A DNA stretch of 38,858 nucleotides from an uncultured Sphingomonadaceae bacterium (GTDB taxonomy: Bacteria; Pseudomonadota; Alphaproteobacteria; Sphingomonadales; Sphingomonadaceae), in the NCBI GenBank assembly GCA_947494305.1, contig CANLUL010000007.1:1-38858 (forward strand), given 5' to 3'. Numbering within the stretch: position 1 is the stretch's first letter; each line of letters starts with the position of its first letter. Shown piece after piece: positions 16,496 through 33,470 of this stretch. The notes beneath the pieces are model-generated. The model was not told where the DNA came from and did not search any database. It was given only the letters and a program-made list of their open reading frames with translations. Both the position numbers and the translations under genes were made by a program.

Positions 16496-18571
16496 GTGCC
16501 CAAAATTCGTCTAGCAACAGATGTCGGTGGAACATTTACTGACCTGGTTTTTTATGAAGTCGATGCAGGGCAGGCTGTTGTTAACGGGGTGCAGGCGGTC
16601 AAGTCGCACACGACGCCGCCAAATTTTGAAAAAGGCGTTCTGGCCGCTGTGGAAAAAGCCGAGATTGATGAGCCATCTATCGAGTTTTTTGCGCACGGAA
16701 CAACGGTTGTTATCAATGCGCTGACCGAACGCAAGGGCGTCAAGACTGCGTTAATTACGACCAAGGGATTCCGCGATATTTTGGAAATTGCGCGCGGCAA
16801 TCGCCCCGACTTTTTTAACCTGCTTTACGAAAAACCAGAACCCTTTATTCCCCGTTATCTAAGGCAGGAGGTGTCAGAGCGGTTAACCTACAAAGGAAAA
16901 GTTCTGGAGCCTCTTTCAACCGATGGACTGTCGAATATTCTTGATAGTTTCAAAGCAGAGGGCGTCGAGGCTATCGCAATCTGCTTGCTCCATTCCTATG
17001 CAAATCCCGCCCACGAGATCGCACTTGAGCAAGCCATTCAAGACCATTGGCCAGAAGTTTCCACGGTCTGTTCCCATCAAATCACGCGTGAATGGCGAGA
17101 GTATGAGCGTTCCAATACCACGGCATTATGTGCCTATGTCCGCCCCATTGCTGTTGATTACCTGACCCGCATGGAAAACGAATTGCACGCAAACGGATTT
17201 GATGGGTCTTTTTACGTGATGCAGTCAAACGGCGGGATTGATACGCTTTCCTCAGCGAAAGCGACACCGATCACGATGGTGGAATCAGGGCCGGCAAGCG
17301 GAGTATTGGGCGCTGCAGCGCTTGGGGAGTTAATCGGCGAGAAGAATATTATTGCACTGGACATTGGCGGCACCACTGCGAAATGTTCGCTGATCGACAA
17401 TGGCAATGTTGAGGTGACCAGCCAGTACATGATTGAAAAAAGCCAGCTTTCAGCAGGCTATCCGATCATGACTCCGGTGGTGGATATCGTCGAAATAGGC
17501 AATGGCGGTGGTTCAATCGCCTGGGTTGATGAAGACGACAAAATGCATGTTGGCCCCAAAAGCGCTGGTGCCAAGCCGGGCCCGGTCGCTTACGGAAAAG
17601 GCGGCACAGAGCCGACAACCACGGACGCGAATTTGATGCTTGCGCGGATAAATCCAGAATATTTTATCGGTGGTGAAATAGCAGCGGACATGAGCGCCGT
17701 AGCATCATCATTTGATACGATCGGAAAAAAACTTGGTCTTACGGCAACAGAGGCCGCTCGCGGAGTGGTTAGAATTGCCAATCACAATATGATCAGCACG
17801 CTTAAATTGGTGTCTATTAATCGGGGCTATGATCCGAGAGACTTTACCATGGTCGCTTTTGGGGGGGGCGGTGCAATGCATGCTACCGCTTTGGCCAAAG
17901 AACTGTCCATTCCCAAAGTGATTATCCCTGCGCATTCGGCCGTATTCTCGGCCTGGGGCATGCTGATGTCTGATTTGCGCCGGGACTATGTCAGAACCCA
18001 CCCAATTCCGATTACAAATTCAAGCGCCGCTGAGCTCAATGGCATATTTCAAGAGATGGAGAGCGAGGCAGAAGAAGCGTATCGGGCCGATGATATCGAT
18101 GCATCAGCTGTCCGTTTTGAGCGCTTTGTGGATTTACGATATGACGGCCAGGAACATTCGGTTCGCGTGCCCATACCCAATAGCGAAATTGATTCCGCCG
18201 AAATAGCGGCAACGCTGGATCGGTTCCAGGATGCGTATGAAAAAGAATATACCTATAGATTGGAGGCGGGGATCAATCTGGTGTCCTTTCATTTAGTCGC
18301 ATATGCCGAGGTTGAGAGGCCTGAAATGGCTAAGATCCGGCCGCTGGATTCATTGCAGGATGCAGTAAAAGAAGAGCGGGAAGTTGATTTTGATGAGGAT
18401 GGCATTCACATGGCCAAGATCTATAATCGCGACCTGCTTGGCAGTGGCGCCGCATTTAGCGGCCCGGCGATAGTTGAAGAATCCGGTAGCAGCACGGTCA
18501 TATTCCCCGATCAAACGGCCACCGTCGATGATTACGGGAATATCCATATTCACTTGTCGGCCCATGATTGA
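16496..18571 (+). CDS. Hydantoinase/oxoprolinase A subunit (HyuA1)
   Basis: This 691-aa protein has the three parts of the HyuA/oxoprolinase A family, whose members activate cyclic amides (hydantoins, 5-oxoproline, caprolactam) or ketones with ATP. The Hydant_A_N phosphate loop is ATDVGGTFTD (7-16). The second actin-like loop is DIGGTT (289-294). GNGGGSIAW and GPKSAGAKPGPVAYGKGGTEPTTTDAN are typical of the family. The GTG start has GGAG seven bases upstream. hyuB1 follows within 12 bases. An eight-G run (17861-17868) encodes part of FGGGGAMHA in the intact frame. The exact substrate cannot be read from sequence. Confidence 0.92.
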   Translation: MPKIRLATDVGGTFTDLVFYEVDAGQAVVNGVQAVKSHTTPPNFEKGVLAAVEKAEIDEPSIEFFAHGTTVVINALTERKGVKTALITTKGFRDILEIARGNRPDFFNLLYEKPEPFIPRYLRQEVSERLTYKGKVLEPLSTDGLSNILDSFKAEGVEAIAICLLHSYANPAHEIALEQAIQDHWPEVSTVCSHQITREWREYERSNTTALCAYVRPIAVDYLTRMENELHANGFDGSFYVMQSNGGIDTLSSAKATPITMVESGPASGVLGAAALGELIGEKNIIALDIGGTTAKCSLIDNGNVEVTSQYMIEKSQLSAGYPIMTPVVDIVEIGNGGGSIAWVDEDDKMHVGPKSAGAKPGPVAYGKGGTEPTTTDANLMLARINPEYFIGGEIAADMSAVASSFDTIGKKLGLTATEAARGVVRIANHNMISTLKLVSINRGYDPRDFTMVAFGGGGAMHATALAKELSIPKVIIPAHSAVFSAWGMLMSDLRRDYVRTHPIPITNSSAAELNGIFQEMESEAEEAYRADDIDASAVRFERFVDLRYDGQEHSVRVPIPNSEIDSAEIAATLDRFQDAYEKEYTYRLEAGINLVSFHLVAYAEVERPEMAKIRPLDSLQDAVKEEREVDFDEDGIHMAKIYNRDLLGSGAAFSGPAIVEESGSSTVIFPDQTATVDDYGNIHIHLSAHD

Positions 18572-18582
18572 AGAAAGGTAAT

Positions 18583-20268
18583 ATGATGAACGCTATCCAG
18601 GCAAAGCCCGAGAGCCCTGACTATGATCCTATCACCATTGAGATCATACAATCTTCGCTCACGGCGATAACCGATGAAATGTTTGCGACGATGCGCAAGA
18701 CTGCGATGAGTTCCATTATTTACGAAGTTCTGGATTTCGGCGTTGCCATGTTTGATGCCGACGGCAATCTGGCGAGTTCTGGCTCTGGGATACCCGGTTT
18801 CATTGGAATGCTGGAGCCCGGTGTAAAAGCCATCATGAAGAAGTTTGGCAAAGCAGATATAAGTGAAGGTGATATTTACATGACCAACATGCCGCATTTT
18901 GGCGGTGTCAGTCATTTGAACGATGTTGTCCTGATCATGCCGGTTTTCGTGGAGAACCGGATTGTTTCCTGGCTTGCCAACAAAGCGCACTGGGCGGATG
19001 TTGGTGGAGCCTTTCCCGGCAGCATCAGTCCGGATGCAGTGGATATATATCAGGAAGGATTGCAGCTTCCCGAAATCCGTATCGTCGACAAAGGTTCCGT
19101 AAATCAGGCAGTGCTTGATGTCATACTGATGAACAGCCGGATCCCGGAAACAACCAAGGGTGATTTTTGGGCTGGCATCGCATCAATGCGCGCTGGCGAA
19201 CGGCGGCTACAAACGATCATCGAGAAATATGGGGAGCCGTCGGTCACCTATGCCATTGCAGATTATATAGCTCTGGGAGAATCCCAATCTCGTCGTGCGC
19301 TTCAGCAATTGCCCTATGGAGAATATGCGGCGATCGAAACTATTGAGGATGGTCAGCAACTGAAAGTCAAAATTACGATTTCGGCCGACGAGTTTCTGGT
19401 GGACCTTAGAGGCAATCCCAAACAAAATAACAATGCCATGAATTCATCCTATGATGCGACTTATGTCGATGCACAGATGATGTTTAAAGCCATTGCCAGT
19501 CCACAGACTTTCGCCAATGCGGGGACATTCAAGCCGCTCAAACTGATTACCGATAAGGGATCCATGTTCGACGCTGAATATCCGGCGGCAATGAGTGTTT
19601 ATTACGAAGTCAGTATGTTGATTTTCGACTTGATGTGGAAGGCATTGGCGCCGGCTCTAAAAGACATGCTGCCCGCTGGACATTATTCCTCGATCTGCGG
19701 CACATTCTTGGGCGGCCCGCACCCGGAAACCGGCGAAGCACAGAGCATTGTTGAGCCTCAGCTTGGAGGCTGGGGTGCCTGTCAAAACCGCGACGGCCTC
19801 AATGCGCTTTACACGGGATATCATGGCGACACTTTCAATTGTCCGGTTGAAGTCACCGAACAACGCAACGGCCTGATGGTCGATCGGTTGGCATTGACCG
19901 ATGAAGAAGGCGGTGAAGGGGAGTTTCTGGGCGGTAAGGGAATTAATCTGGACTACCGCGTCATGAAGGATGATTGGTGGCTAACCATGGCCTATGTCCG
20001 GTCGGAAAAAGGGCCATGGGGTCTCGATGGCGGTCTGGATGGTACAACTAACTATGTTGTTGTCGAGAAGGCGGATGGTTCAACGCAGAGATACAGCTCC
20101 TGCACAGCTTTGCCGTTGCAGAAAGATGATGTCGTTAAAGTCGTTACAGCCTCCGGCGGAGGATATGGCGATCCGGCCGACCGTCCCGCCGCACAAGTCA
20201 AAGAGGATGTCAAAAACGGCTATATCTCGGCTGAACGCGCGCTCGAAATTTATGGAGTTGAAGCCTAA
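18583..20268 (+). CDS. Hydantoinase/oxoprolinase B subunit (HyuB1)
   Basis: This 561-aa protein is the usual partner of HyuA. Family features in order are DPITIEIIQSSLTAITDEMF (N-terminus), YEVLDFGVAMFDADGNL, NMPHFGGVSHLNDVVLIMPVF, a middle stretch ending LRGNPKQNNNAMNSSYDATYVDAQMMFKA, and a Gly-rich end, GGEGEFLGGKGINLDYRV then VTASGGGYGDPADR. ATGs at 18583 and 18586 are both possible; AAAGG lies just upstream. A TTG at 18568 would overlap the hyuA1 stop without a good ribosome site. It has no signal peptide, so the A-B enzyme is cytoplasmic. Its stop overlaps the next start by one base. Confidence 0.92.
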   Translation: MMNAIQAKPESPDYDPITIEIIQSSLTAITDEMFATMRKTAMSSIIYEVLDFGVAMFDADGNLASSGSGIPGFIGMLEPGVKAIMKKFGKADISEGDIYMTNMPHFGGVSHLNDVVLIMPVFVENRIVSWLANKAHWADVGGAFPGSISPDAVDIYQEGLQLPEIRIVDKGSVNQAVLDVILMNSRIPETTKGDFWAGIASMRAGERRLQTIIEKYGEPSVTYAIADYIALGESQSRRALQQLPYGEYAAIETIEDGQQLKVKITISADEFLVDLRGNPKQNNNAMNSSYDATYVDAQMMFKAIASPQTFANAGTFKPLKLITDKGSMFDAEYPAAMSVYYEVSMLIFDLMWKALAPALKDMLPAGHYSSICGTFLGGPHPETGEAQSIVEPQLGGWGACQNRDGLNALYTGYHGDTFNCPVEVTEQRNGLMVDRLALTDEEGGEGEFLGGKGINLDYRVMKDDWWLTMAYVRSEKGPWGLDGGLDGTTNYVVVEKADGSTQRYSSCTALPLQKDDVVKVVTASGGGYGDPADRPAAQVKEDVKNGYISAERALEIYGVEA

Positions 20269-21524
20269 TGGTCGGCGCTTCCGAAAGCAGCAACGCTCCG
20301 CTGCTGTTGCGGTCTGCCAGGATAGTGGAAACGGCGTCTTCAACCGTATCGGATCCTGTTGATATCAGGATTGTGGGCGGCCGAATTGCAGAAATATCCT
20401 CGCAGCTCACAGGTGAGGATGAGACGGTTGTCGAATTGGGCGGGGCGTATATCTTGCCGGGCCTGATCGATTGTCATGCCCACCCCTTTTTGGCCGATAC
20501 AAATCTATCGCGCCTTAATGCCATACCACCGACTTTGATGGCCGCCAGAGCCAGCAATATCCTGGAGCGGATGCTGATGCGCGGGTTTACTTCAATTCGC
20601 GATGCGGCTGGAGGAGACTGGGGAATCAAGCAAGCCGTGGAAGATGGTTTGATCGACGGTCCGCGCATGTTCATTGCTGGGCGCGCTTTAACCCAGACGG
20701 GCGGGCATGGCGATATGCGGATGCGCACCGAGGACAGGGAGCCGTGCGGTTGCGGCGATGCGCTCGCGTATACCGGGCGGATAGCCGATGGCGTTGATGC
20801 CGTGCGCAAGGCCGTTCGCGATGAATTGCGCAAAGGCGCGGATCAGATCAAAATTATGGTTTCAGGAGGCGTATCCTCGCCCCATGATCCGTTGGAACGA
20901 AACCAGTATAGCCCGGATGAAATTAGAGTCATTGTCGAAGAGGCCGAACGCCGCGGAACATATGTGATGGCGCATGCCTATGGCGCCGATGCGATCCGGG
21001 TTGCACTCGAGTGCGGTGTGCGGACGATTGAGCATGGCAATTTGATTGATCAGGAAACAGCCGAGCTGGCCGCACAAAAATCCGCATATCTGGTCCCTAC
21101 CTTGGTCACCTATCAGGTGCTTGCAGAAACCGCCCCTGCCAGCGGTTGGAGCGATGACATGCTTGCCAAGCTTGATGTGGTGAAGAGCAGAGGCTTGGAT
21201 GCCATTAAAATCTGCCGGGATGCAGGCGTCAAAATCGGTTTCGGCACGGATCTACTCGGAGATAGTTTTGATGCCCAATCAGACGAATTCCTGGTCAGAA
21301 GCGCTGTCGAGCAACCGACCGCAATTCTGCACAGTGCCACTGCGATCAATGCGGAAATATTAAACATGCAAGGCGAGCTGGGGACGATTTCCGAAAACGC
21401 ACTTGCCGACATCATTGCCGTGGAGCGCAACCCGCTTGAGGACATTGCATTACTGACCGGGCAAGGTGAACATATTGTACTGATCATGAAACAGGGCGTT
21501 ATCTACAAAAACAATTTTAACTGA
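20268..21524 (+). CDS. Metal-dependent amidohydrolase, Xaa-Pro dipeptidase-like
   Basis: This 418-aa protein belongs to the amidohydrolase superfamily, in the branch annotated imidazolonepropionase-like or Xaa-Pro dipeptidase. The metal ligands are visible: H70-A-H72, Lys195 in IKIMVSGGVSSP, His236 (MAHAYG), His256 (IEHGN) and Asp328 (FGTDLL). These suggest a binuclear site with carboxylated lysine. The start ATG shares its A with the hyuB1 TAA stop, so translation is coupled. No signal peptide is present. In this operon it probably cleaves the linear product of the Hyu enzyme. N-acyl amino acids and Xaa-Pro dipeptides are both known substrates in the branch, so specificity is open. Confidence 0.9.
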   Translation: MVGASESSNAPLLLRSARIVETASSTVSDPVDIRIVGGRIAEISSQLTGEDETVVELGGAYILPGLIDCHAHPFLADTNLSRLNAIPPTLMAARASNILERMLMRGFTSIRDAAGGDWGIKQAVEDGLIDGPRMFIAGRALTQTGGHGDMRMRTEDREPCGCGDALAYTGRIADGVDAVRKAVRDELRKGADQIKIMVSGGVSSPHDPLERNQYSPDEIRVIVEEAERRGTYVMAHAYGADAIRVALECGVRTIEHGNLIDQETAELAAQKSAYLVPTLVTYQVLAETAPASGWSDDMLAKLDVVKSRGLDAIKICRDAGVKIGFGTDLLGDSFDAQSDEFLVRSAVEQPTAILHSATAINAEILNMQGELGTISENALADIIAVERNPLEDIALLTGQGEHIVLIMKQGVIYKNNFN

Positions 21525-21537
21525 AGGGATATTGGCA

Positions 21538-22827
21538 ATGGCATCAAGTGCAGAAGTGAAGCCGGTCGCCGACTTCGCGCGGTCCGCCGTCCCGGAAGGA
21601 CAAGGTTCAAGCGGCCTGCATATCGCATTGATTATAATCGGCGGTACAATCGGGTTCTCGATATTCATTGTAGCCGCGCAAATTGGCGGCGCGTTGGGGT
21701 TTTCAGGAGCCGCCGCGGCCTTTGCACTGGGCAGCCTGATTCTGGGAACAATGGGTGCGATCACCAGCTATGTTGGCGCCAAATCCCGGCTGTCGACTTA
21801 CTTGCTCACCGAATTTGCTTTTGGCTCAACCGGAGCGAAAATTGCCAATTTGGCGGTCGCGCTCTCCTTGATCGGCTGGTTTGGTGTGATCAGCAATATA
21901 TTGGGTCAGGCCACGCACAGCATGATATTGGAGTCTATCGGGATTTCCATCCCTGTCTATCTGTGCATTTTAATCGCCAGTGTTCTCATGATTGGCGTGA
22001 CGGTCATGGGTTTCACGGGGATTGATCGCCTGGCGCTCATTTTGGTGCCCATCATGATCGTGTTCATAGGCTGGGCGGCCTATCTGGCCTGGCAGCAATC
22101 GGGAGACACGACAACCGCGCTTCAAACATCAGATTTTACCTTTCGCACGGCGGTTTCAGCCGTTGTCGGTAGTTATATATCCGGTGTAATTATCCAGCCT
22201 GACTACAGTCGATTTGCCAGAAATATCCGCAGCGCCGTCATCGCAGTATTCATCGCGCTTGGTGTGGTTTTTCCTTTGATTCAGTTTTTCTCTGCCGTTC
22301 CAAGCATGATGATGGGTATCCCGGACATAATTCAGGTGATGATAGGATTGGGTATTATTGTCCCGGCCTTTTTCCTGCTGCTGCTCGGCGCGTGGTCGAG
22401 CAATGTTCTGTGTCTCTATTCTTCCGGTCTGTCGATTGCGACGATCATTCAGAAGGTAAAACTGGCCTCGATCATATTGGGAATTGGTATCGTCGGAACG
22501 GTATTGGCATTTCTGCCAGCACAGGATTATCTGATCGGTTTTCTGGTGCTACTGGGCATCACCATCCCACCAATTGGCGCTATCTATATTATCGAAGCGA
22601 TTTTTATTCGGAAATTTGACCTGTCCATCGAAAGGCTCGAACGGGAGCCTTCGATAAATTGGAATGCGTTCGTCGCGTGGACCCTGGCCATTGTGGTGGG
22701 ATATCTATCCACAAATGACATATTTGGCATCGTCAATATCGGTTCACTGGACTCTCTCATAGTCTCAAGCTTTGTATACGCTGGTTTGAGTTGGATCAGA
22801 ATGAGCAAGCCACAAGCGGTCACCTAG
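21538..22827 (+). CDS. NCS1-family permease (cytosine/hydantoin-type)
   Basis: This 429-aa protein has about 12 hydrophobic helices and the CodB-like signature QPDYSRFARN (220-229) of the nucleobase-cation-symport-1 family. The family imports cytosine, allantoin, hydantoins and related small cyclic amides with Na+ or H+. I use the ATG at 21538, with AAGGG nine bases upstream, rather than a TTG at 21532 too close to that site. It follows the amidohydrolase by 13 bases, so the carrier is made with the ring-opening enzymes. Its substrate is probably the cyclic compound or a small product. Among described NCS1 proteins, Mhp1 (hydantoin) suits the context best. Confidence 0.9.
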   Translation: MASSAEVKPVADFARSAVPEGQGSSGLHIALIIIGGTIGFSIFIVAAQIGGALGFSGAAAAFALGSLILGTMGAITSYVGAKSRLSTYLLTEFAFGSTGAKIANLAVALSLIGWFGVISNILGQATHSMILESIGISIPVYLCILIASVLMIGVTVMGFTGIDRLALILVPIMIVFIGWAAYLAWQQSGDTTTALQTSDFTFRTAVSAVVGSYISGVIIQPDYSRFARNIRSAVIAVFIALGVVFPLIQFFSAVPSMMMGIPDIIQVMIGLGIIVPAFFLLLLGAWSSNVLCLYSSGLSIATIIQKVKLASIILGIGIVGTVLAFLPAQDYLIGFLVLLGITIPPIGAIYIIEAIFIRKFDLSIERLEREPSINWNAFVAWTLAIVVGYLSTNDIFGIVNIGSLDSLIVSSFVYAGLSWIRMSKPQAVT

Positions 22828-22830
22828 GGA

Positions 22831-25578
22831 ATGGCTGCCGGCTCGAATGCGTTTGAACCAACAGGAACGATATGTCATGATATGAACTTAATGGCTGAAG
22901 TTGATGAGCTCCCCGATAGCGATAGTAGTTGGATCGTTGAGAACAAGTTTGTTCCGAGCAGACCAAATATTGATTTGGTTGATCGAGGTCGACTGATCTC
23001 GGTATTGGATAGTGCGGTTAAGCGCAAATTGGCTCTGGTTGTTGCCCCCGCTGGTTTTGGCAAATCTACTGTGCTCTATCAGTGGTTTGAGGATCTTGCC
23101 TCAAATGATGTCAAAGTGTCCTGGCTTTCGCTTGATGAAGCCGATTCTGAAGTCCGGCAGTTTTTGGCCTATTGCACCATTGCCCTGGCCAATGTGGGTG
23201 TTGATATGGCGGCACTGGAAATTGCCGCGCGCAATGGTTTCGCCGAATCCCAACCGTCCCGACTGGTGTCCAGCATTTTGCGTCAGATACAGAGTTCCAA
23301 AGAAAATCAGATTTTGATTCTGGATGACTATCATCGGGCATCATCTCCCGAAGTCGATGCCATTGTTCAGCAGATGATCCGGGAGATGCCCAAAAATCTG
23401 ACGCTCTGCATCAATTCCAGATTTGCACCCGATCTGGATTTGCCAATGCTGGTAGCGTCCGGAGAGGCGGTGGAAATAGGACCGGATCAATTGCGCCTTA
23501 CCCCATCTGAAGTGGCTGCCGCACTGGGAGATAATATTGCTTTTCAGGATACAAAAGAAATAATTGAGCAAACCGAAGGTTGGCCGGTGGCAGTCCAGCT
23601 GGCCAAAGTCCAGAAACAGGCTCAACCACTCATATCTTTGAAAAATATGGGGCCATCCGGTCTGGTTGCGTCCTATTTGACCGATCAGGTGCTGGCGTCT
23701 GTGGATGAAGACGTCAGCAACTTTCTATTGACTGTATCGGTGTTGGAACAGTTTAATCCAAGTCTAGCCAATGCAGTGGGTGCAGCAGCAAACAGTATCG
23801 AAATTCTACAGCGACTGGAGCCATTGAATGCGCTGCTCATTCCAACAGACACATCCAACGACTGGAGAAGGCTGCATCACCTCTTTGCCGAATATCTTCT
23901 GGAAACGCTCCGCAAGACAGATTCCGATCGCATCGTTGAAATCCAGAAATCCGCCAGCGACTGGTTTGAAAAGAAGGGATATCTGATTGAGTCTGTCCGC
24001 TATGCGAGCATAGCGGGTGATGATGCCAGATGCGAAAGACTGATACTCGATGCGGGTGGTTGGAAAATTATTCTGACCGAAGGCATCGGGGTTATGCGAA
24101 CGCTTTTGCGCCTTGCTCCGGATCATGTCATTTCCGGAAGTGGCAGATTGATGATCGCTCGCGCCTATCTTTGTTGCAAAGAAGGGCAATATCACGAAGC
24201 GCGCGGATTGATGGATGCATCCGAAGCCTTGCGGCAGGAGGCAGACGGAGCGGCCTATGACAAGGATCATCGTGTCGTCGAAGCGATGATCCTGGGTTAT
24301 GAAGATCAGGAAGACTGGGCGCTCAATCTGGCCAATCAGGATTTTTGCCCCGATCCGGCCGAATGGTCAAATCTTGAGGCGGGTACATTGTTGTGTGAAT
24401 CCGTCATGGCTCTTTTTTCCATCGGTGACCTTTCGGCTGTGCATAGAAAATTGGATTTGGCCTTTTCAGAGATGCGAAGCAGTGGTTCCGTGCTTGGATT
24501 GAACTATTGTTACATCCACGCTGGCAATGTTGCGCTTTATTCGGGCAGTTTTGATTTGGCGAGCGCGAACATCTCTCAGGCTGTAGAACTGGCAGACAAC
24601 AATTTTGGTTCTGACAGCGGCCTAAAGCACCTTTCCGAGGTAGCAGCTTATGCCATCAAAATCTGGAAAGGTTTGGCTTCTGAAGAAGATATCGAACCAT
24701 TTTCCCAAACACTTCTGCAGGTAGAGGAGTCTGATGGCTGGGCGGAAATTTATCTGTTGGGATTGGATGCCGCCTTTCAACTATGTGAGCAAGTCGGTAA
24801 CTACAGTTTTGCTTCTGAGTTTGTTCGGCGCTTTTCGTACCTCGCGAAAAACAGGAATTTGGAGAGATTACAGAACCTGTGTCGCATATTGGAAATGCGA
24901 TTGGCGCATCTGCGGGGAAATACGGCCTCTGCGGAATTGATTGCGAAAGAAATTCAAGACGAGATGCTGCCGTTAAACTTCGAACAAAACCTCCGCGGAT
25001 GGCAGGGTTACTATCACGCATCGATTGCTTTGTGTACTTCCCGTCTTATGTCTGGTGGCATCGGCATAAACTCGCTGCATCAGTGTCAATTAGATGCACA
25101 AGCAAAGGGAACCTATTTGTACGACATTCGCCTGCGCGTTGCTGAAGCAATTCTGATCAGACAATCGGGCAGGAAGAATGACAGTGCGGAAATCCTGATC
25201 GGTGCCATCAAAATTGCTGCCCCCCAAAAAATAATGGGGCCATTTTTGGGCGATGACAGTCTGAAAAAGATATTGAAAGACGCCAGAGTGTTGCTTCGGG
25301 GGGAAGAAAATCAGTTGATATTGGTAAACTTCATTTCTGAAATCCTGTCGCGGTTGGAGAAATTGAAACCACAGACAGGAAGCGAGATAATGAGCGCTAG
25401 AGAGCAAGAAATTCTGGAACAGCTAGCCCAAGGACAATCGAACAAGGAAATTGCGCGCCGTTTTGAGCTAACTGAAAATACCGTAAAATTTCACTTGAAG
25501 AACATCTATGCGAAGCTTGCCGTGAACCGGCGGACCCAGGCCATAGCCGCCGCTCACAAGCTCAAATTGCTAGAATAG
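22831..25578 (+). CDS. MalT-type LuxR-family ATP-dependent regulator
   Basis: This 915-aa protein has a signal-transduction NTPase domain (Walker A APAGFGKST, 72-80; ILILDDYHRA as Walker B), long helical repeats resembling the MalT SUPR/TPR region (about 380-800), and a C-terminal LuxR helix-turn-helix (855-915, SAREQEILEQLAQGQSNKEI). Such regulators bind an inducer and ATP, oligomerise and activate transcription. The start is uncertain: the ATG at 22831 is three bases after the permease stop with a poor ribosome site, and an in-frame ATG at 22882 is an alternative. Its place at the end of the first operon and just before the TonB receptor points to control of this island. Confidence 0.9.
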   Translation: MAAGSNAFEPTGTICHDMNLMAEVDELPDSDSSWIVENKFVPSRPNIDLVDRGRLISVLDSAVKRKLALVVAPAGFGKSTVLYQWFEDLASNDVKVSWLSLDEADSEVRQFLAYCTIALANVGVDMAALEIAARNGFAESQPSRLVSSILRQIQSSKENQILILDDYHRASSPEVDAIVQQMIREMPKNLTLCINSRFAPDLDLPMLVASGEAVEIGPDQLRLTPSEVAAALGDNIAFQDTKEIIEQTEGWPVAVQLAKVQKQAQPLISLKNMGPSGLVASYLTDQVLASVDEDVSNFLLTVSVLEQFNPSLANAVGAAANSIEILQRLEPLNALLIPTDTSNDWRRLHHLFAEYLLETLRKTDSDRIVEIQKSASDWFEKKGYLIESVRYASIAGDDARCERLILDAGGWKIILTEGIGVMRTLLRLAPDHVISGSGRLMIARAYLCCKEGQYHEARGLMDASEALRQEADGAAYDKDHRVVEAMILGYEDQEDWALNLANQDFCPDPAEWSNLEAGTLLCESVMALFSIGDLSAVHRKLDLAFSEMRSSGSVLGLNYCYIHAGNVALYSGSFDLASANISQAVELADNNFGSDSGLKHLSEVAAYAIKIWKGLASEEDIEPFSQTLLQVEESDGWAEIYLLGLDAAFQLCEQVGNYSFASEFVRRFSYLAKNRNLERLQNLCRILEMRLAHLRGNTASAELIAKEIQDEMLPLNFEQNLRGWQGYYHASIALCTSRLMSGGIGINSLHQCQLDAQAKGTYLYDIRLRVAEAILIRQSGRKNDSAEILIGAIKIAAPQKIMGPFLGDDSLKKILKDARVLLRGEENQLILVNFISEILSRLEKLKPQTGSEIMSAREQEILEQLAQGQSNKEIARRFELTENTVKFHLKNIYAKLAVNRRTQAIAAAHKLKLLE

Positions 25579-25631
25579 AGGCAAATTTCAACACCAGCTT
25601 CAGGCCGTGATAATTTTGTCACAAATTTAGC

Positions 25632-25786: not shown

Positions 25787-28045
25787 ATGACAATGAATCG
25801 CAAACTGGGAATACTCGCAACGGCATCTGTTCTGGCCAGTGCCTCGGTCTTTGGCAGTGCTGCGCAAGCGCAAACGGATGGTGCTGAGGGCAACGACGAC
25901 AATGTGATTATTGTGACAGCCCGTGGTCGCGACGAACTGGTCTTAGATGTTCCATTATCGGAAACGGTATTCGATGCGGAAGCCATATCGGACGCCAATA
26001 TTCAACGTGTTGATGACTTTATCGGCCTCACGCCCGGCATCACAATATCAAACTCACAGGATGCTGGAACGAACTTTATCTCGGTTCGTGGATTGTCACA
26101 GACTCGCAATGGCGAACCACCTGTTGCTGTCTTGATTGATGGCGTTCTTCAAACCAATTCACGCTCGTTTGACCAGCCACTGTTCGATGTGGATAGCATC
26201 GAGGTTCTCAGAGGGCCGCAGGGTGCACTCTATGGACGGAATGCGACCGGCGGTGCGATCATAATCAACACCAAGGCGCCGACCAACGATTTCGAAGGAT
26301 ATGTGCAAGCCACCATTGGCACGGGTGAAGAATATGGTTTCGAAGGCTCTGTTTCCGGGCCACTAGTTGAAGACAAAGTCTTTTTCAGGCTCTCTGGAAA
26401 ATATACCAACCGTGATGGCTATCTGGATAATGTCATATTAGGCGAAAAAGTCGATTACCTCGAAGATATTGCCTTGCGCGGCCATTTAAGGTTTGAGCCA
26501 TCAGACACTGTAACCATCGATCTCAGAGGTTCGTTAGTGCGGACCGAGGCCGGCTCGCTCAACTTCAGCTATCAACCTGCGGTCATTGATACGGCAACCG
26601 GTCTTCCAAGCGCATTTGATTTTTCTATCAACGATTCTGATATCGTTGCACGAGACTTTTTCGCCAACAATCTGGGGTTAGATGATCGGGACGTCGATCA
26701 GTTGTCGCTACGGGTCAACTTCGATCTGGATTTTGCTGATCTGTCCTTTGTTTCGGCCTATGACAAAATCACCCAGAGTACAGGCAGTGACCAATTTCCT
26801 TACACGGCGGCCAGCCAGGTGACCCCTGCTCCGCCATTCCCGTTCTTTGATGGTATTCAATCACAGTTTATTGATGTTGAAACTTTCAGTCAGGAAGTGC
26901 GGCTGACCTCCAAGAACGACACCGCATTCCGGTGGATGATTGGTGGTTACTATCTCGACACCAGTCGGTTTATTTCCTCATCGATCATGAATGATCTCGA
27001 GCAGGGTATAGTCAGAATCAGGCGTACTCCGGACTTCAATCCGACCAATCCGCTCACCAGTTTCATTGCTGATGACAATGACAACACAGCGTGGGCACTG
27101 TTTTTCAACGCTGCCTATGACCTTACCGATCAGCTCGAGCTGTCGGTAGCCGGTCGATATGATAAGGATAAGCGCCGGCAAAATGTCGATCCAGCTCAAG
27201 GGCTTTATGATGGCGCCGGAAACCTTACCGCCCCGGTTGGTACGCCAGGTGCAATAAACCGAGCTACTTTTGACTTGTTCCAACCGAAGGTCACGCTCCG
27301 GTACAAACCGGCAGACAATGCGACGCTTTATGCTTCCTGGGGTAAGGGGTTCCGGAGCGGTCAATTTAATCAAAATGGCGTAGGTGTTCTAGCGGCGGGT
27401 GCAGGCGTCAACGGTGTCGGCGATCTGCTTCCGCAAGAAGAGACCGAAACATTTGAAGCAGGCTTCAAAACCAGTCTTATGGGTGGTGCGCTCAACTTCA
27501 GCGGTGCGGCTTACAAGACAAACCTGCAGAACGCTCCTTACTTCGTGTTTATTGGTGCGGTCAGTGCGCAGGTTTTGGTTCCCATCGATGATATCGATAT
27601 TTTTGGTGTTGAATTTGAAGCATCGGCAGGGTTGGCAGATGGTCTGGATGCATATTTTGGATTGAGCATAACCGACAGCGATATCAAATCCTATGCTGTT
27701 GACCCAACGCTGGTCGGTAACGAGGCACCTTATATTGCCAAGAACACAGTTAATGCCGGGATACAATATCGAACCGATATCAATGATTGGCTGGGTGTTT
27801 TTGCACGGTTCGATCTGGAGCATCGCGGACGTCAGTTCTGGACTCCGGAAAACACTGCTCCGCGTTCCGGTATCAATTTGGCAAATTTCAGATTTGGATT
27901 TGAGGATCCGGACGGTAGATGGAGCCTCACAGTTTCAGGCACCAATATTTTTGACGAGGTTTACAATTCGGAATTTGTTACCGGCGGTTTTGCACATGCC
28001 GGGCAACCCGATGTTTGGAAGGCTGACCTCAGAATTAATTTCTGA
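25787..28045 (+). CDS. TonB-dependent outer-membrane receptor, island-linked
   Basis: This 752-aa receptor has a Sec signal (LGILATASVLASASVFGSAAQA-Q, cleavage near 28), a TonB-box-like VIIVTARG (40-47), a plug with VRGLSQTRNGEPPVAVLIDGV and LRGPQGALYGRNATGGAI (141-158), and a long barrel ending in Phe (ADLRINF). GAGGGAA precedes the ATG. Receptors of this iron-complex/FecA-like type import siderophores, vitamins or organic nutrients using TonB energy. Genes on both sides are catabolic, and there are no siderophore genes or FecR/sigma pair, so an organic substrate is more likely than iron. It lies 208 bp after the regulator gene, with its own probable promoter. Confidence 0.93.
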   Translation: MTMNRKLGILATASVLASASVFGSAAQAQTDGAEGNDDNVIIVTARGRDELVLDVPLSETVFDAEAISDANIQRVDDFIGLTPGITISNSQDAGTNFISVRGLSQTRNGEPPVAVLIDGVLQTNSRSFDQPLFDVDSIEVLRGPQGALYGRNATGGAIIINTKAPTNDFEGYVQATIGTGEEYGFEGSVSGPLVEDKVFFRLSGKYTNRDGYLDNVILGEKVDYLEDIALRGHLRFEPSDTVTIDLRGSLVRTEAGSLNFSYQPAVIDTATGLPSAFDFSINDSDIVARDFFANNLGLDDRDVDQLSLRVNFDLDFADLSFVSAYDKITQSTGSDQFPYTAASQVTPAPPFPFFDGIQSQFIDVETFSQEVRLTSKNDTAFRWMIGGYYLDTSRFISSSIMNDLEQGIVRIRRTPDFNPTNPLTSFIADDNDNTAWALFFNAAYDLTDQLELSVAGRYDKDKRRQNVDPAQGLYDGAGNLTAPVGTPGAINRATFDLFQPKVTLRYKPADNATLYASWGKGFRSGQFNQNGVGVLAAGAGVNGVGDLLPQEETETFEAGFKTSLMGGALNFSGAAYKTNLQNAPYFVFIGAVSAQVLVPIDDIDIFGVEFEASAGLADGLDAYFGLSITDSDIKSYAVDPTLVGNEAPYIAKNTVNAGIQYRTDINDWLGVFARFDLEHRGRQFWTPENTAPRSGINLANFRFGFEDPDGRWSLTVSGTNIFDEVYNSEFVTGGFAHAGQPDVWKADLRINF

Positions 28046-28137
28046 ACTTGAGTGGATCTTTGTGGCCTCCGTGCCATGAAGATCAGCTTGCAACAAAACT
28101 AACTGTTTTCATTCCGAGATCGCAAAAGGGGATTCCG

Positions 28138-28656
28138 GTGACGGGTGAGCATTACCTGATTGATACTGAACTGGGGAATTTCTCCATCTGGTTGGATGTA
28201 AAAAACGCACCGGAAACCTGCGGCTATTTCTCCCAGCTGTTTAAACAGGGAGAATTTGACGGGAGCTCTATTTTCCGGATTGTGAACGCAGAGAATGCGG
28301 AAATGCGGACAACGACACCAATAGAGGTGGTTCAGCTTGGGTCGCCGGATATGTCGGCCATCGCAGATCCAAAATTTGCACATGAGCATAGTGGCGTAAC
28401 CGGGCTTCGGCACAAGCAATGGACGATATCGGCAGCACGAGGCGAAGTGGGAGAAAACTACCCAAGCCTGTTCATTTGTATGCGCGACGAACCAGAGCTC
28501 GACCATGGTGGTGGCAGGCACCCGGATGGGCAAGGGTTCGCAGCATTTGGTGAAGTTGAAAGCGGTTTGGAGATTGTGCAGGCCATCTATGCAAAAGCAG
28601 AAGATGGCGAGTTTTTGGCGAGCCCAATAGCTATTGCATCGGTTGTCACATGCTGA
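28138..28656 (+). CDS. Cyclophilin-like protein with degenerate active site
   Basis: This 172-aa protein follows the cyclophilin prolyl-isomerase fold: YLIDTELGNFSIWLDVKNAPET, then FDGSSIFRIV, then ISAARGEVGENYPSLFICMRD, then DGQGFAAFGEVESGLEIVQAI. I use the GTG at 28138, with AAAAGGGGA five bases upstream, over a longer reading from 28048 that starts near the receptor stop. It has no signal peptide. Compared with human CypA, the catalytic Arg of FHR is kept (IFRIV). The FMxQGG segment is replaced, Gln111 aligns with Ser, and the His126 position is not His. It may bind rather than isomerise prolyl substrates, or be a weak enzyme. Alignment is by eye. Confidence 0.82.
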   Translation: MTGEHYLIDTELGNFSIWLDVKNAPETCGYFSQLFKQGEFDGSSIFRIVNAENAEMRTTTPIEVVQLGSPDMSAIADPKFAHEHSGVTGLRHKQWTISAARGEVGENYPSLFICMRDEPELDHGGGRHPDGQGFAAFGEVESGLEIVQAIYAKAEDGEFLASPIAIASVVTC

Positions 28657-28779
28657 CCAAGGGGCATCTTTTTCCAACAACCATGAGCAGCCCGGGTCGA
28701 GCTGATGCAGCTCTCTGGTGGTCGTCTTGTAACGACGAGGTTCTGGGTTTTGGGATGCAATCAAACAGAGGAGATGAGC

Positions 28780-29796
28780 ATGTCGCGTGAGTGGGTGATT
28801 AATAGTTATTCGGGATATCAGGGTCTGGTTCTGCAGGATTGTGAACGTGCCGATGCGGGACCTGGCGAAGTTCGCCTGGCCATTGAAGCTTTTGCTCTGA
28901 ACTGGGGTGATGCGGACCTGATGCTGGACAACTACTCGTTTAGCTTTGACCACTTTCCCGCCCGCATAGGAATGGAAGCGGCCGGTATTGTCGACCAGAT
29001 TGGGGAAGGTGTTACCGGAATTGAGCTTGGTGAACGCTATTGTACGCTGCCCCATTTCTATTTCAACAAGGGCGCGAGTGCAGAATCGGTGGTTGTGGAT
29101 GCACGCTATGTGACCAAAGCACCCGCTTCACTTTCCGCCGTCGAAGCGTCGTCAATCTGGATGCAATATCTGACGGCCTACTATCCTATTGTGGAAATCT
29201 CCAAAGCGGGACCGGACAAGACAATTCTCGTTCCTGCCGCCACAAGCACCGCCGGATATGCCGCTTTGCAACTGGGGAAGTTAATGGGCGCAACAATGGT
29301 GGGCACGACACGCTCCGCTGACAATAGCGACTGTCTTCTGCAAGGCGGCGCCAGCCATGTTTTCGTTGACCGGGGCGAAGAGGATCTTGCCGATGCGTTG
29401 ATGGAATATTCTAACGGCAATGGCGTCAATGCGGCATTTGATCCGATCGGTGCCGGTATGATGAACCGGTATAGCAAAGCACTCGCGCAGGATGCCAGAA
29501 TCTACCTTTACGGCTGGCTGGATGGCGAAGTACCAAGCATCCCTACTTTAGATATGATCAAAGTGAACGCGATCTATCATCCCTATTCCGTATTTCATTA
29601 CATCGAGGATCCAGAATCCTGTCAACGCGGCATTTCCTTTGTCAACAATGCCATTGAAGCCGGGGATTTGTCTCCACTGATCGACAGGGTTTTCCCGATG
29701 GAGGGATATCGCGATGCCTGGGACTATCTCAGGCAGCCCCGCAAGGACCACGGCAAAGTTGTGGTCGCGGTCACGGACGATGCCAATTCAAAATAG
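28780..29796 (+). CDS. MDR-family zinc-free oxidoreductase (quinone reductase-like)
   Basis: This 338-aa protein is a medium-chain dehydrogenase/reductase: a GroES-like N-terminus (VRLAIEAFALNWGDADLMLDNY, GMEAAGIVDQIGEGVTGIELGERY) and a Rossmann domain with VPAATSTAGYAALQLGKLMGA (151-171), resembling the NADPH loop of quinone oxidoreductases. The structural-zinc Cys cluster of alcohol dehydrogenases is absent. The ATG at 28780 is six bases after AGAGGAG; the ATG at 28774 touches that site and is unlikely. It probably reduces a double bond, quinone or carbonyl in a pathway intermediate. The HyuA2 gene starts 54 bases downstream, likely in the same transcript. Confidence 0.88.
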   Translation: MSREWVINSYSGYQGLVLQDCERADAGPGEVRLAIEAFALNWGDADLMLDNYSFSFDHFPARIGMEAAGIVDQIGEGVTGIELGERYCTLPHFYFNKGASAESVVVDARYVTKAPASLSAVEASSIWMQYLTAYYPIVEISKAGPDKTILVPAATSTAGYAALQLGKLMGATMVGTTRSADNSDCLLQGGASHVFVDRGEEDLADALMEYSNGNGVNAAFDPIGAGMMNRYSKALAQDARIYLYGWLDGEVPSIPTLDMIKVNAIYHPYSVFHYIEDPESCQRGISFVNNAIEAGDLSPLIDRVFPMEGYRDAWDYLRQPRKDHGKVVVAVTDDANSK

Positions 29797-29850
29797 CGAA
29801 ACCGATAACGAAAACTGATCGGGTGAGTGGAACATGAGAGAGATGAGCAC

Positions 29851-31872
29851 ATGACAAAAACAAGAGTTTCGGCGGATATTGGTGGTACGTTCACCGATTT
29901 TGTTGTGCAGAAAGAAACAGGCGAAATTTCCATCGGAAAGGTTCCCACAACCACCGATAATCCCGCATTGGGTGTATTGGACGGTATCAGATCGCTGGTT
30001 GATGATCCTGGATCGATAGACTTTTTTGTTCATGGAACGACCGTTGGTCTCAATGCTTTTCTGCAACGCCGTGGCGCCCGTACTTTGTTGATCATGACGG
30101 GCGGCGTTGGGGATACATATACGATCGCTCGTGGCCACCGGGAGGAATTGTATAAGCTTCGGTATAGAAAACCCAAACAGCTACTCGATCGCGAATCTGT
30201 CCATGAGGTCACCGAAAGACTGTCCTGGGATGGCTCGGTTATCACGGACCTAGTGGAAAGTGATTTTGCACCGATTATCGAAAAAGCCAAAGCGCAGAAT
30301 ATTGAGGCAATAGCGATTTGTTTCCTGCATGCCTACACCAACCCTGCGCATGAGCTGCGTGCTCGTGAAATATTGCAGGAGGCGTTACCCGAGATATCGG
30401 TGTCCCTGTCCCACGAAGTCGCGCCTGAGTGGCGAGAAGTCGAACGCGCATCTTCGACCGTGATGGATGCTTATGTCGCACCGGTGGTGGAGCTGTATCT
30501 CAAGACATTAAAAAGTGAGCTGCTGGCGGAAGGGATGGAAGAAACCATCCATGTGATGCGATCCAATGGCGGCGTGATGACCGATATTTCCGCTTCTAAG
30601 CATCCCATATCAACCTTGTTGTCGGGACCTGTTGGCGGCAGCATTGGCGGCATGCAATTGTCTGCTGCTACGGGGTTAAAGAACCTGCTTTGTGTAGACA
30701 TGGGCGGCACATCATTTGACCTTAGTTTGGTGGTAGATGGTCAACCTCAATTGACCTCTGAAACGGTGCTCGAAGGGCTTCCGCTCTTGATGTCGATCAT
30801 CAACATCGAAACCGTTGGTGCCGGCGGCGGGTCGATGGCCTGGATTGAAAATGGCGGGTTACGGGTCGGACCGCAAAGTGCCGGATCACTACCCGGACCG
30901 GTTTGTTATGGGCGCGGCGGCACACAGCCAACTGTAACCGATGCCAATTTGTTTCTGAGGCGTCTTGGCGATGGGTCTTTACTCGATGGAAAAATGACTC
31001 TCGATTCTGAAGCCAACAATGCTGCCATGCAAAAGCTGGCTGAGGATCTTGGGTTGTCAGATGTTGAGCTTGCCGAGGGTATCCTGGCCATAAGCAACGC
31101 AAAAATGGCGGATGCCATGCGGACTATCACGGTGGGACAGGGTATTGATCCCCGAGACTATACGCTGGTAGCCTTTGGCGGAGCAGGGCCCATGCACGCG
31201 GTTGAACTGGCCCGCGAGCTAGATATTGCTAAGATAATCATTCCCCAGTTTCCCGGGACATTCTCTGCATGGGGTATGTTGCAGAGTGATATTCGCCATG
31301 ACTTGAGCAAGAGTTTCTTTCGCATTGCAACGGAACTTGAATCAAAAGACTTAGAGCCGGTTTTTGACGAAATGCGGCAATCTGGTGTTTCGATATTGAC
31401 CGAGGAAAATGTGCCGACGGAGAGCATGGCATTCGAACAGGCCGCTGATCTTAGATATTCTGGTCAAGAATATACCATTTCCGTTCCGATAAAAGAAGGA
31501 GCAGCGATTGCGGAGGTGATCGCCGAATTCCACAAGCTGTACGAGGTTCGATATGGCCATGCCTTACCCGAGGCTCCGGTAGAGATAATCAACCTGCGTT
31601 TGGCTGCGTTTGGCAAGCTGGAAAAGATACCGGCTCAAAAGCTCCCCGAACGGGAAAACTCCGACGCTGTTTCCGGACAACGCGACGTGATTTTCAATGG
31701 ACAGCAGCATGCTACTCCAATCTACAAGCGCTACAATTTGGCCGTTGGTCAATCGATTCACAGTCCAGCAGTGATTGAGGAAGAAAGCGCCACGACCATT
31801 ATTCCTCCTGGATATCATTTCAGCTTGGACACGTTTGGGAATATTATGATTGAAGCGCAGGAGCAAAACTGA
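29851..31872 (+). CDS. Hydantoinase/oxoprolinase A subunit (HyuA2)
   Basis: This 673-aa protein is a second HyuA, clearly diverged from HyuA1. The phosphate loops are SADIGGTFTD (7-16) and DMGGTS (283-288), with GAGGGSMAW and GPQSAGSLPGPVCYGRGGTQPTVTDAN. I start at the ATG at 29851, with GAGAGAGA seven bases upstream, not at the in-frame GTG at 29827. Its stop shares a base with the hyuB2 start. The divergence from HyuA1 (clearly different residues through most of the chain) suggests another substrate or stereoisomer rather than a recent duplication. The enzyme is expected to use ATP in the cytoplasm. Confidence 0.92.
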   Translation: MTKTRVSADIGGTFTDFVVQKETGEISIGKVPTTTDNPALGVLDGIRSLVDDPGSIDFFVHGTTVGLNAFLQRRGARTLLIMTGGVGDTYTIARGHREELYKLRYRKPKQLLDRESVHEVTERLSWDGSVITDLVESDFAPIIEKAKAQNIEAIAICFLHAYTNPAHELRAREILQEALPEISVSLSHEVAPEWREVERASSTVMDAYVAPVVELYLKTLKSELLAEGMEETIHVMRSNGGVMTDISASKHPISTLLSGPVGGSIGGMQLSAATGLKNLLCVDMGGTSFDLSLVVDGQPQLTSETVLEGLPLLMSIINIETVGAGGGSMAWIENGGLRVGPQSAGSLPGPVCYGRGGTQPTVTDANLFLRRLGDGSLLDGKMTLDSEANNAAMQKLAEDLGLSDVELAEGILAISNAKMADAMRTITVGQGIDPRDYTLVAFGGAGPMHAVELARELDIAKIIIPQFPGTFSAWGMLQSDIRHDLSKSFFRIATELESKDLEPVFDEMRQSGVSILTEENVPTESMAFEQAADLRYSGQEYTISVPIKEGAAIAEVIAEFHKLYEVRYGHALPEAPVEIINLRLAAFGKLEKIPAQKLPERENSDAVSGQRDVIFNGQQHATPIYKRYNLAVGQSIHSPAVIEEESATTIIPPGYHFSLDTFGNIMIEAQEQN

Positions 31873-33470
31873 TGACATCACCACAATCTGCCAACCCCAT
31901 CACCACAGAGATTATTCGCAATGCCTTTAATGCCATTGCCGAAGATATGAATGCATCTCTTATTCGAAGCGCTTACACTCCGATCATCTATGAAGGCAAA
32001 GACTGCGCAGTCGGCTTGCTCGATGAGAATGGTGATGTCCTGGGCCAGTCACTAGGGCTTCCGCTATTTCTGGGAAACCTGTCTCTGTGTGTGCAGATCA
32101 TCGCCGATACAAACGGATGGGACTATTTTGAGGAAGGAGATGTTGTTCTTCTCAATGACTCCTACATCGCCGGCACCCATCTGAATGACATTACCATTAT
32201 CATGCCGATATTCTGGCAAGGAGAAAGAGTGGGTTTCGCGACCTCACGCGCCCACTGGCTGGATGTGGGGGCAAAAGACCCCGGGTCGCCAACCGATGCT
32301 TCCGAAATCTATCAGGAAGGCATGCGCTGGGCGCCAACCAAGGTGTACCGCAATGGGGTCGCGCAGGAAGATATCCTGAATTTCATGAAGAATAACAGCC
32401 GTTTTGGCGATGCCTTGCTTGGTGATCTCCACGCGCAGATAGCGGCAGGCCATACGGGAACTGCCCGCTATGGTGCGCTGCTTGATCGCTTTGGTCATGA
32501 TGTGGTGACGGCTGCACGGGATGATATTTTCCGGCAATCCGAAGAAATGGAGAGGATCTCCATCCAGCAAATTCCAGACGGAGATTACGAGGCCGAAGGC
32601 AGTCTGGACAATGACGGACTGTCGGATGATCCAGTCGCCGTTCAATTAAAAATCACCGTCCAGGGTGACAAAATGACGATGGATCTTGCTGGATCTTCCG
32701 ATCAAACCGTCGGCGGTGTCAATTGCGGGTTTACGCAGACAATCTCGGCCGCCCGGGTCGCATTCAAATTACTGATTAACCCGGAACGATCCGTCGATGG
32801 CGGCACGTTCAAAACGCTGGATGTCAAAGCGCCCGTAGGTTCGATATTCTATGCCCAGGAACCAGCAGCTTGCTCATGGTATTTCTCGTCTTTGGGGCTG
32901 CTAATCGACCTTGTCGTAAAGGCGCTTGCACCCGTGATGCCTGAACGAGCTGCCGCAGCGCATTATGGCGATTCCATGGTCGTTATTTTTAGCGGTCAAG
33001 ACAGTCGCAACGACGATGAATTCTATGTTTCGATTGAAGCCAATACAGGCGGATGGGGCGCATGGAATGGTTCCGATGGACAAGATTGCCTGATCAACAA
33101 TGTCAACGGAAGCTTCCGGGATTATCCGATCGAGGTGTATGAGCATCGCTATCCCATCAGGATCATGCGTTATGGGATAAGAGATGATAGCGGCGGTAAA
33201 GGCCAGTTTAACGGCGGAAACGGCAGTATCCGGGAATATCATTTAACCGAAGAGGCAAATCTTTCGCTTTGGTTTGAAAGATCAAAAACCCCTGCGTGGG
33301 GATTGAATGGCGGCCTGCCGGGTCAGGCTCCGCAAATCGAAATTGAACAGCCCGGTCAACCATCGGAGTCAATGTTCAAAGTAAACGCCAAATCTCTGGC
33401 AGAAAATACCATTGTGAGAGTAGCAACTGGCGGCGGCGGGGGATTTGGTAAGCCTGTTGGAGCTAATTAG
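31872..33470 (+). CDS. Hydantoinase/oxoprolinase B subunit (HyuB2)
   Basis: This 532-aa protein is the partner of HyuA2. Family landmarks are NPITTEIIRNAFNAIAEDMNASLIRSAYTPIIYEGKDCAVGLLDENG at the N-terminus, NDSYIAGTHLNDITIIMPIF, the ARAHWxD-like TSRAHWLDVGAKDPGS, and a C-terminal GGKGQFNGGNGSIREYHL with RVATGGGGGFGKP. RAHWLDVG matches the HyuB consensus more closely than NKAHWADVG of HyuB1. Translation is coupled to hyuA2 through the TGATG overlap. No intrinsic terminator is visible in the next 340 bp. Confidence 0.92.
   Translation: MTSPQSANPITTEIIRNAFNAIAEDMNASLIRSAYTPIIYEGKDCAVGLLDENGDVLGQSLGLPLFLGNLSLCVQIIADTNGWDYFEEGDVVLLNDSYIAGTHLNDITIIMPIFWQGERVGFATSRAHWLDVGAKDPGSPTDASEIYQEGMRWAPTKVYRNGVAQEDILNFMKNNSRFGDALLGDLHAQIAAGHTGTARYGALLDRFGHDVVTAARDDIFRQSEEMERISIQQIPDGDYEAEGSLDNDGLSDDPVAVQLKITVQGDKMTMDLAGSSDQTVGGVNCGFTQTISAARVAFKLLINPERSVDGGTFKTLDVKAPVGSIFYAQEPAACSWYFSSLGLLIDLVVKALAPVMPERAAAAHYGDSMVVIFSGQDSRNDDEFYVSIEANTGGWGAWNGSDGQDCLINNVNGSFRDYPIEVYEHRYPIRIMRYGIRDDSGGKGQFNGGNGSIREYHLTEEANLSLWFERSKTPAWGLNGGLPGQAPQIEIEQPGQPSESMFKVNAKSLAENTIVRVATGGGGGFGKPVGAN

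Follow-up and report, generated by a model that had tools for sequence, protein, structure and literature searches.

A conserved gene island with two ATP-dependent cyclic-amide hydrolases suggests a pathway for the breakdown of proline cyclodipeptides

Results and discussion

A gene island predicted to degrade proline cyclodipeptides

Contig CANLUL010000007.1 of an uncultured Sphingomonadaceae bacterium, analyzed over its entire length of 38858 bases and called the window here, carries an island of ten genes (16496-33470) that, judged from sequence comparison, probably mediates the uptake and breakdown of proline cyclodipeptides (diketopiperazines, cyclo(Xaa-Pro)). Such compounds are abundant, stable and bioactive. 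The island encodes two pairs of HyuA and HyuB subunits of ATP-dependent cyclic-amide hydrolases, a prolidase-like amidohydrolase (AmdH), an NCS1 permease, a MalT-type regulator, a TonB-dependent receptor (TBDR), a cyclophilin (Cyp) and an MDR-family reductase. The original prediction had described this gene set on one strand, and the scans agree: all ten genes are full-length open reading frames (ORFs) on the + strand and each has a Pfam match. Successive gaps measure -4, -1, 7, 3, 208, 92, 48, 30 and -1 bases, and the genes probably form two transcription units, HyuA1-HyuB1-AmdH-NCS1-MalT and TBDR-Cyp-MDR-HyuA2-HyuB2.

From the observed gene identities, motifs, co-conservation and neighbors we infer the following substrate, reactions and cis-to-trans step. 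The TonB receptor and the NCS1 permease would import the substrate, HyuA would activate a ring amide with ATP and the metal site of HyuB would hydrolyze it. Activation as a lactim phosphate would need an N-H group, which cyclo(Xaa-Pro) has at a single amide, the secondary one of Pro-CO-NH-Xaa. If the lactim form is required, only this bond could be opened, which would yield a linear Xaa-Pro dipeptide with its prolyl bond still in cis. Prolidases prefer the trans form; the cyclophilin would convert cis to trans Xaa-Pro and the amidohydrolase would cleave it. Proline would be oxidized by PutA, which is encoded elsewhere in this genome and beside the cluster in some relatives, and the MDR enzyme may reduce dehydro-cyclodipeptides. 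The cyclophilin would raise flux rather than be essential, which would fit its absence, by the queries used, from Bacillota clusters. It is very likely that proline is released from a cyclic amide, and a cyclodipeptide is the probable substrate; an action of the cyclophilin on the opened dipeptide is more doubtful. The complete scheme, a bacterial and archaeal pathway with ring opening by two deep HyuAB clades and with a cyclophilin as the metabolic enzyme that converts cis to trans dipeptides for a prolidase, is put forward tentatively.

Conservation of the gene set

In other families of Sphingomonadales, homologs of the island genes with 34-75% identity are again grouped, and the grouping also occurs farther afield, so the gene set is not due to chance. 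Gene order in the relatives is shuffled. Eight Sphingomonadales loci (L034-L041; L-numbers label the loci fetched in this analysis) carry HyuA2B2, HyuA1B1 or both, and in seven of them the MalT, cyclophilin and TonB receptor genes are consecutive. Within the fetched stretches AmdH (44-48% identity) was found in four of the eight, MDR (36-52%) in six and NCS1 in one, with none of the three in the stretch of L041; longer stretches of L038 and L039 (L058 and L059) add AmdH and NCS1. The closest cyclophilins within the order adjoin MalT, TonB receptor or HyuAB genes. The cluster is also present in Citromicrobium, an Erythrobacter, Kordiimonas aquimaris and a Hellea metagenome-assembled genome (MAG), and in part in a Woeseia MAG. 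The original prediction had staked its reading on conservation of the set in other Sphingomonadales; the set does recur there as well as in Kordiimonas and Hellea, and the lack of co-conservation that would have spoken against the reading was not seen.

The TonB receptor (25787..28045), identified by its Pfam match and its relatives in other clusters, is 58-79% identical across the Sphingomonadales and Kordiimonas clusters. The NCS1 permease (Transp_cyt_pur, 21532..22827; PF02133, 5.9e-24), a putative inner-membrane uptake protein, has the cytosine permease 7qoa as its sole PDB match. The MalT-type LuxR regulator (22831..25578; GerE, 3.4e-19) scores 276.6 bits with NF003420 (MalT), below the cut-off of 537. 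The MDR-family NAD(P)H reductase (28705..29796; ADH_zinc_N, 9.3e-14) matches TIGR02824 under its cut-off; a 62% identical copy adjoins HyuA1B1 in the Woeseia locus (L065).

Proline genes in the neighborhoods

A total of 80 loci was sorted by HyuB type into 53 of the HyuB2 clade, 8 of the HyuB1 type and 19 controls with a distant HyuB. Among the HyuB2-clade loci, proline dehydrogenase (PRODH/PutA) was found in 14, a prolidase in 26 and a cyclophilin in 16, with at least one of these markers in 33. PRODH was present in five HyuB1-type loci and an M24 prolidase in two, while cyclophilin and AmdH were absent; five of the eight had at least one marker. None of the 19 controls had PRODH, a prolidase or a cyclophilin. 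NCS1 permeases were found in 6/53 and 5/8 of the two groups, respectively. A Pfam survey of 107 neighboring ORFs from 34 loci, which is independent of the marker queries, agrees with these counts: Pro_dh, M24, Amidohydro_1 and NCS1 were each found six times, SBP_bac_5 four times, cyclophilin and Asp/Glu racemase three times each and Pro_racemase twice. None of these families was among the 25 of 56 families listed in the control survey (68 ORFs, 18 loci), in which 13 families had more than one member and single proline-family members are possible beyond the 25.

PRODH, prolidase or proline racemase neighbors recur in Alpha- and Gammaproteobacteria, Bacillota, Bacteroidota and an archaeon. In locus L053 HyuB2 is followed by MDR and PutA, and a Subsaximicrobium locus (L105) has the order TonB receptor, MDR, HyuA1B1, NCS1, PRODH. 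The most extended example, Cytobacillus oceanisediminis (L097), reads PRODH, cupin regulator, HyuA1B1, cupin, M24 prolidase, HyuA2B2, a small unscanned ORF, racemase, MFS, HyuA-like, DUF917, a second M24 prolidase and DUF917. The cluster of Natribacillus (L086) includes a proline racemase, an Ensifer plasmid carries HyuAB (HyuB 48.6%, HyuB2 clade) followed by a permease and proC, and in an archaeal case, a Thaumarchaeota MAG contig (L106), PRODH (over the Pfam cut-off) and an M24 gene come after HyuA1B1. Extra PRODH copies accompany the clusters: 11 of the 14 genomes searched that have PRODH in the cluster (15 loci given) carry two to three copies, and all nine cluster genomes without PRODH in the stretch carry a single one. 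The host of the window likewise has a single PRODH, the PutA at C1:708817. Both HyuAB pairs thus appear tied to proline.

Two clades of HyuAB hydrolases

The ATP-binding subunits HyuA1 (16496..18571; Hydantoinase_A, 8.5e-91) and HyuA2 (29827..31872; 3.4e-89) both have the phosphate motifs DxGGTxTD and DxGGT and the adenosine motif GxxPGP, as defined for the lactamase family in passages of PMC8453981. They read DVGGTFTD at 9, DIGGT at 289 and GAKPGP at 358 in HyuA1, and DIGGTFTD at 17, DMGGT at 291 and GSLPGP at 353 in HyuA2. In the metal subunit HyuB2 (31872..33470; Hydantoinase_B, 1.2e-160), D44, H103, D106 and H128 align with the metal ligands of CapB (Asp/Glu-His-Asp-His). HyuB1 (18568..20268; 1.2e-150) has H116, D119 and H141, with D56 read directly off the sequence. 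Scores with the caprolactamase equivalogs NF050156/NF050157 (508.8, 544.6 / 251.4, 225.5) are far under the cut-offs of 1000; both pairs are therefore lactamase-family members, probably with a substrate other than caprolactam.

In a quick HyuB tree with flagged long branches, 29 rows form the HyuB1 clade and 57 the HyuB2 clade, with SH-aLRT (Shimodaira-Hasegawa-like approximate likelihood ratio test) values of 99 and 100. Both nest in one group of 88 (SH-aLRT 98), the remaining two rows of which are the distant HyuB of L069 and L082. The distant-HyuB controls, a further, distant HyuB from the same genome as the window, 7hk5 and CapB, which is on a long branch, all fall outside. Loci that combine the two types are, besides the window, L056 (its HyuB1 truncated at the end), L058, L059, L065, L080 and L081 (the last two from MAGs of two other phyla) and nine Bacillota loci (L082, L085, L087, L088, L091, L097, L102-L104). 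The two pairs may perhaps serve different side chains or stereochemistry. Among plasmids, a HyuB2 relative was found in 140 records, in each case below 60% identity. In L101 and L102 the HyuB2 relatives are split into two pieces in tblastn, possibly by a frameshift or a sequencing error.

A prolidase-like enzyme and its replacement

AmdH (20268..21524) is an Amidohydro_1 protein of the cog1228 type. Its closest PDB entries among 23 matches are 3mkv (402.7 bits; 'putative amidohydrolase') and 3feq/3n2c (382.3 bits; 'prolidase' in the molecule name), with the arginine carboxypeptidase Cc2672 far below at 149.4 bits. We take 3mkv and 3feq to be the Sgx9260 (Sgx9260b/c) prolidases that cleave Xaa-Pro and N-acyl-Pro. 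HAH at 70, QIKI at 193, AHA at 235, EHG at 255 and GTD at 326 are presumably the amidohydrolase metal-ligand motifs. The Xaa-Pro dipeptidase model NF051886 is the best match by far at 260 bits, under its equivalog cut-off of 500. In all four AmdH relatives tested the same model, again under its cut-off, was the sole match at E 1e-30. Two distant AmdH-like proteins and two weak partial matches are present elsewhere in the genome. The amidohydrolase is replaced in Bacillota and on two archaeal contigs by an unrelated M24 prolidase, and six of six such neighbors match PepQ best, all under the cut-off. This swap of unrelated families with the same predicted reaction supports the Xaa-Pro dipeptidase reaction.

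The cyclophilin

The cyclophilin ORF opens at TTG 28048. The start is probably GTG 28138, since AAAAGGGG is found upstream of it and most near relatives align from about there; this gives a protein of 172 residues (28138..28656; PF00160, 1.1e-16). A fold model from a 13-row alignment reached a pLDDT (predicted local distance difference test) of 89.1, and its top Foldseek matches were peptidyl-prolyl isomerases with solved structures. The active site of human CypA presumably comprises Arg55, Phe60, Met61, Gln63, Phe113 and Leu122; the Arg, Gln, Phe and Leu are invariant in the 13 rows but the Phe60/Met61 pocket is altered, so isomerase activity is likely yet uncertain. Inspection by eye found no signal-like N-terminus in the window protein or its HyuAB-linked relatives, and the protein is probably cytosolic.

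Several other cyclophilin settings were seen. A second prolidase-cyclophilin pairing is seen in L042-L045, where an AmdH-type prolidase, a TonB receptor and a cyclophilin with a signal-peptide-like N-terminus stand together and the stretch has no HyuAB. In Novosphingobium resinovorum pHR1a (L150, 8950-11187) a DUF885-annotated gene has the cyclophilin match in its N-terminal part and belongs to a run with genes for a TonB receptor, DPP IV, aminopeptidase P and leucyl aminopeptidase. Microvirga has a cyclophilin with no HyuAB near it. A Ketogulonicigenium cyclophilin near HyuBA was rejected as part of the same system, its HyuB being outside both clades. Cyclophilin alone was also rejected as a marker, generic relatives being present in 201 of 296 genomes at E 0.001.

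Cyclodipeptide oxidase genes near HyuAB relatives

Genes for cyclodipeptide oxidase (CDO), whose B subunit corresponds to PF19585 according to a passage of PMC11055893, were found near members of both HyuB clades. In an Acidiferrobacteraceae MAG (L069) one run comprises HyuA2, HyuB2, PutA, an unassigned protein, CDOB and CDOA. CDOB matches PF19585 with 48.9 bits (cut-off 28.7), and the CDOA beside it is closest to AlbA (8uc3, E 2.1e-22). The unassigned protein between PutA and the CDO genes (14948-15985, 345 residues) has no other relative in the fetched loci. In Candidatus Formimonas (L182, on the same 6441270-base chromosome as L094) an Opp-like transporter, a racemase, CDO and an M24 prolidase are followed by HyuA1 and HyuB1; L181 and L183 (a 4088-base contig), from the other two CDO-bearing genomes of the HyuAB set, have CDO without HyuAB beside it.

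Across 398 genomes of the Formimonas phylum, 12 CDO places were found in 11 genomes. A HyuA1B1 pair is near three of them (L182, L194 and L187/L195), with an M24 prolidase in L182 and L194, which account for both M24 genes near the 12 places; in L187/L195 CDO is about 3 kb from a unit of Opp-like transporter, HyuA1B1 and racemase. The three CDO-linked HyuB fall within the HyuB1 clade (32 rows, SH-aLRT 100), and the L195 protein groups with HyuB1 of the window in an 8-row set (SH-aLRT 100). Opp-like ABC transporters, so called because the L182 genes are 59-63% identical to genes of L096 that a Pfam scan assigned to oligopeptide transporters, are near eight of the 12 places (L182, L184, L187-L191 and, weakest, L194), which suggests uptake of cyclodipeptides or dipeptides. 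Together with the extra PRODH copies, the M24 swap and the proline racemase, the CDO genes add to the comparative-genomic support for the cyclic-dipeptide degradation that the original prediction had proposed.

Alternative explanations

Several observations weigh against a proline cyclodipeptide pathway. The marker queries were partly drawn from the loci counted, related genomes were counted several times and one AmdH that was counted (L081) is just 29% identical. No PRODH is encoded on the contig of the island, and no CDO match was found in its genome. Of the 50 genomes in the HyuAB set, four were found to have CDO and just one has it in a run with HyuAB; nine of the 12 CDO places lack a HyuA-HyuB pair in the stretch fetched, some stretches stopping at contig ends. 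In the cyclophilin, the F60/M61 hydrophobic pocket (human CypA numbering) is altered around a loop insert. Among 25 further cyclophilin relatives AmdH was near one, PRODH near two and HyuAB near none, and in two of these three loci (L173 and L177) the scanned neighbors are mostly without a clear proline role, apart from one serine carboxypeptidase in L177; the family as a whole is not specific to the system. Finally, 20 of the 53 HyuB2-clade loci, some of them short contigs, have none of the three proline markers. Two of these that were inspected (L073 and L080) adjoin ABC transporter genes; L080 has a Peripla_BP_4 binding protein beside it, yet holds both HyuAB pairs. The marker-less loci, together with the CDO, racemase and Opp-like transporter neighbors in Bacillota, would fit a general cyclodipeptide catabolism with proline merely as the commonest residue. 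This reading overlaps the preferred one and is less likely than it, as PRODH, prolidase and proline racemase recur over so wide a range of phyla.

Hydantoin utilization, in which HyuAB would open hydantoins such as proline hydantoin and the amidohydrolase would decarbamoylate N-carbamoyl-proline, is improbable. The Bacillota HyuAB genes do occur with hydantoin-racemase-family and DUF917 genes, NCS1 permeases accompany both clades and N-acyl-prolines are presumably substrates of Sgx9260-type prolidases. However, Peptidase_M20, which we take to represent the HyuC-type N-carbamoyl amidohydrolase, was matched by none of the 29 window ORFs scanned and is not one of the 25 commonest neighbor families, the M24 neighbors resemble PepQ most, the only PDB match of the permease is a cytosine permease, and the cyclophilin and CDO would be left without a role. 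A similarly low probability is given to proline-rich linear peptides or N-acyl-prolines as the substrate, in which case HyuAB would act on a different lactam, for example pyroglutamate or caprolactam. The modules of L042-L045 and the peptidase run of L150 would suit such a function, but the retention of both HyuAB pairs alongside prolidase and PRODH in several phyla suggests a cyclic substrate, the CapA/CapB scores are about half of the cut-offs or less and no aminotransferase is among the 29 window ORFs scanned.

Genomic setting of the island

The window equals contig C7, one of 11 contigs in a 3.35 Mb genome with a reported completeness of 100%. No exact end overlap of at least 15 bases was detected in the contig, which is thus not shown to be a circle, and Rfam and tRNA scans of the window gave nothing. 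Base composition was uninformative with regard to recent foreign DNA (G+C 0.508 in the island; four stretches elsewhere in the genome range over 0.489-0.515). A short ORF for a type IV secretion system coupling protein (13238-13906) and a resolvase gene (15608-16162) adjoin the island and give a hint of mobility only. Further upstream are copper-resistance genes (352-3594; multicopper oxidase, CopB, DUF4396) and, consecutively at 3818-12683, two ORFs of 317 and 1291 residues without a Pfam match, a porin-like protein, an extracytoplasmic function sigma factor and a Ser/Thr kinase. Genes for a TetR regulator, a DUF3604 protein and a second TonB receptor follow 3' of the island (33814-38793) and were not seen as conserved members of the clusters in the Sphingomonadales loci.

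Significance and comparison with known systems

According to a passage of a 2013 study, the enzymes that hydrolyze diketopiperazines were unclear (PMC3852281), and one sentence of a caprolactamase paper (PMC6061476) raises hydrolysis of cyclic dipeptides as a possible function of some 'oxoprolinases'. In open-access full text no paper was found that names HyuAB as cyclodipeptide hydrolases; subscription papers and bioRxiv are outside this scope and an earlier report is possible. Neither the pathway, its spread over phyla nor the HyuAB-CDO link was found there. The enzyme families themselves are already known. The clusters name exact candidate enzymes for cyclodipeptide breakdown and, if the reading is true, would answer which enzymes bacteria use on these very stable compounds. 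They also suggest a cyclophilin that acts on small molecules rather than in protein folding.

The ATP-dependent lactamase (hydantoinase/oxoprolinase) family, with the caprolactamase CapAB, shares with the window HyuAB the two-subunit build and the phosphate, adenosine and metal motifs, whereas the window proteins are under the CapA/CapB cut-offs and the neighbors of their type are prolidase and PRODH rather than a lactam pathway. HyuAB is likewise common to the hydantoin system hyuABC(E), and racemase-family genes are present in the Bacillota version; in contrast, the window lacks an M20 carbamoylase, and prolidases take its place, accompanied by a cyclophilin, PRODH and, in some relatives, CDO. 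The closest solved structures to AmdH, by far, are 3mkv and 3feq, presumably the prolidases Sgx9260b/c, but AmdH, the activity of which is predicted, clusters with HyuAB and a cyclophilin. The window itself lacks CDO. Clusters with CDO but no cyclodipeptide synthase, for which passages of PMC11055893 suggest purine metabolism or secondary metabolites, resemble the HyuAB relatives in that racemase, DUF917, dipeptide transporter and peptidase genes accompany CDO. The relatives described here have HyuAB, M24 prolidase and PutA as extra neighbors, which points to catabolism and suggests such a role for CDOs; if this is true, many CDOs outside biosynthetic clusters would belong to catabolism, in this pathway and in related ones.

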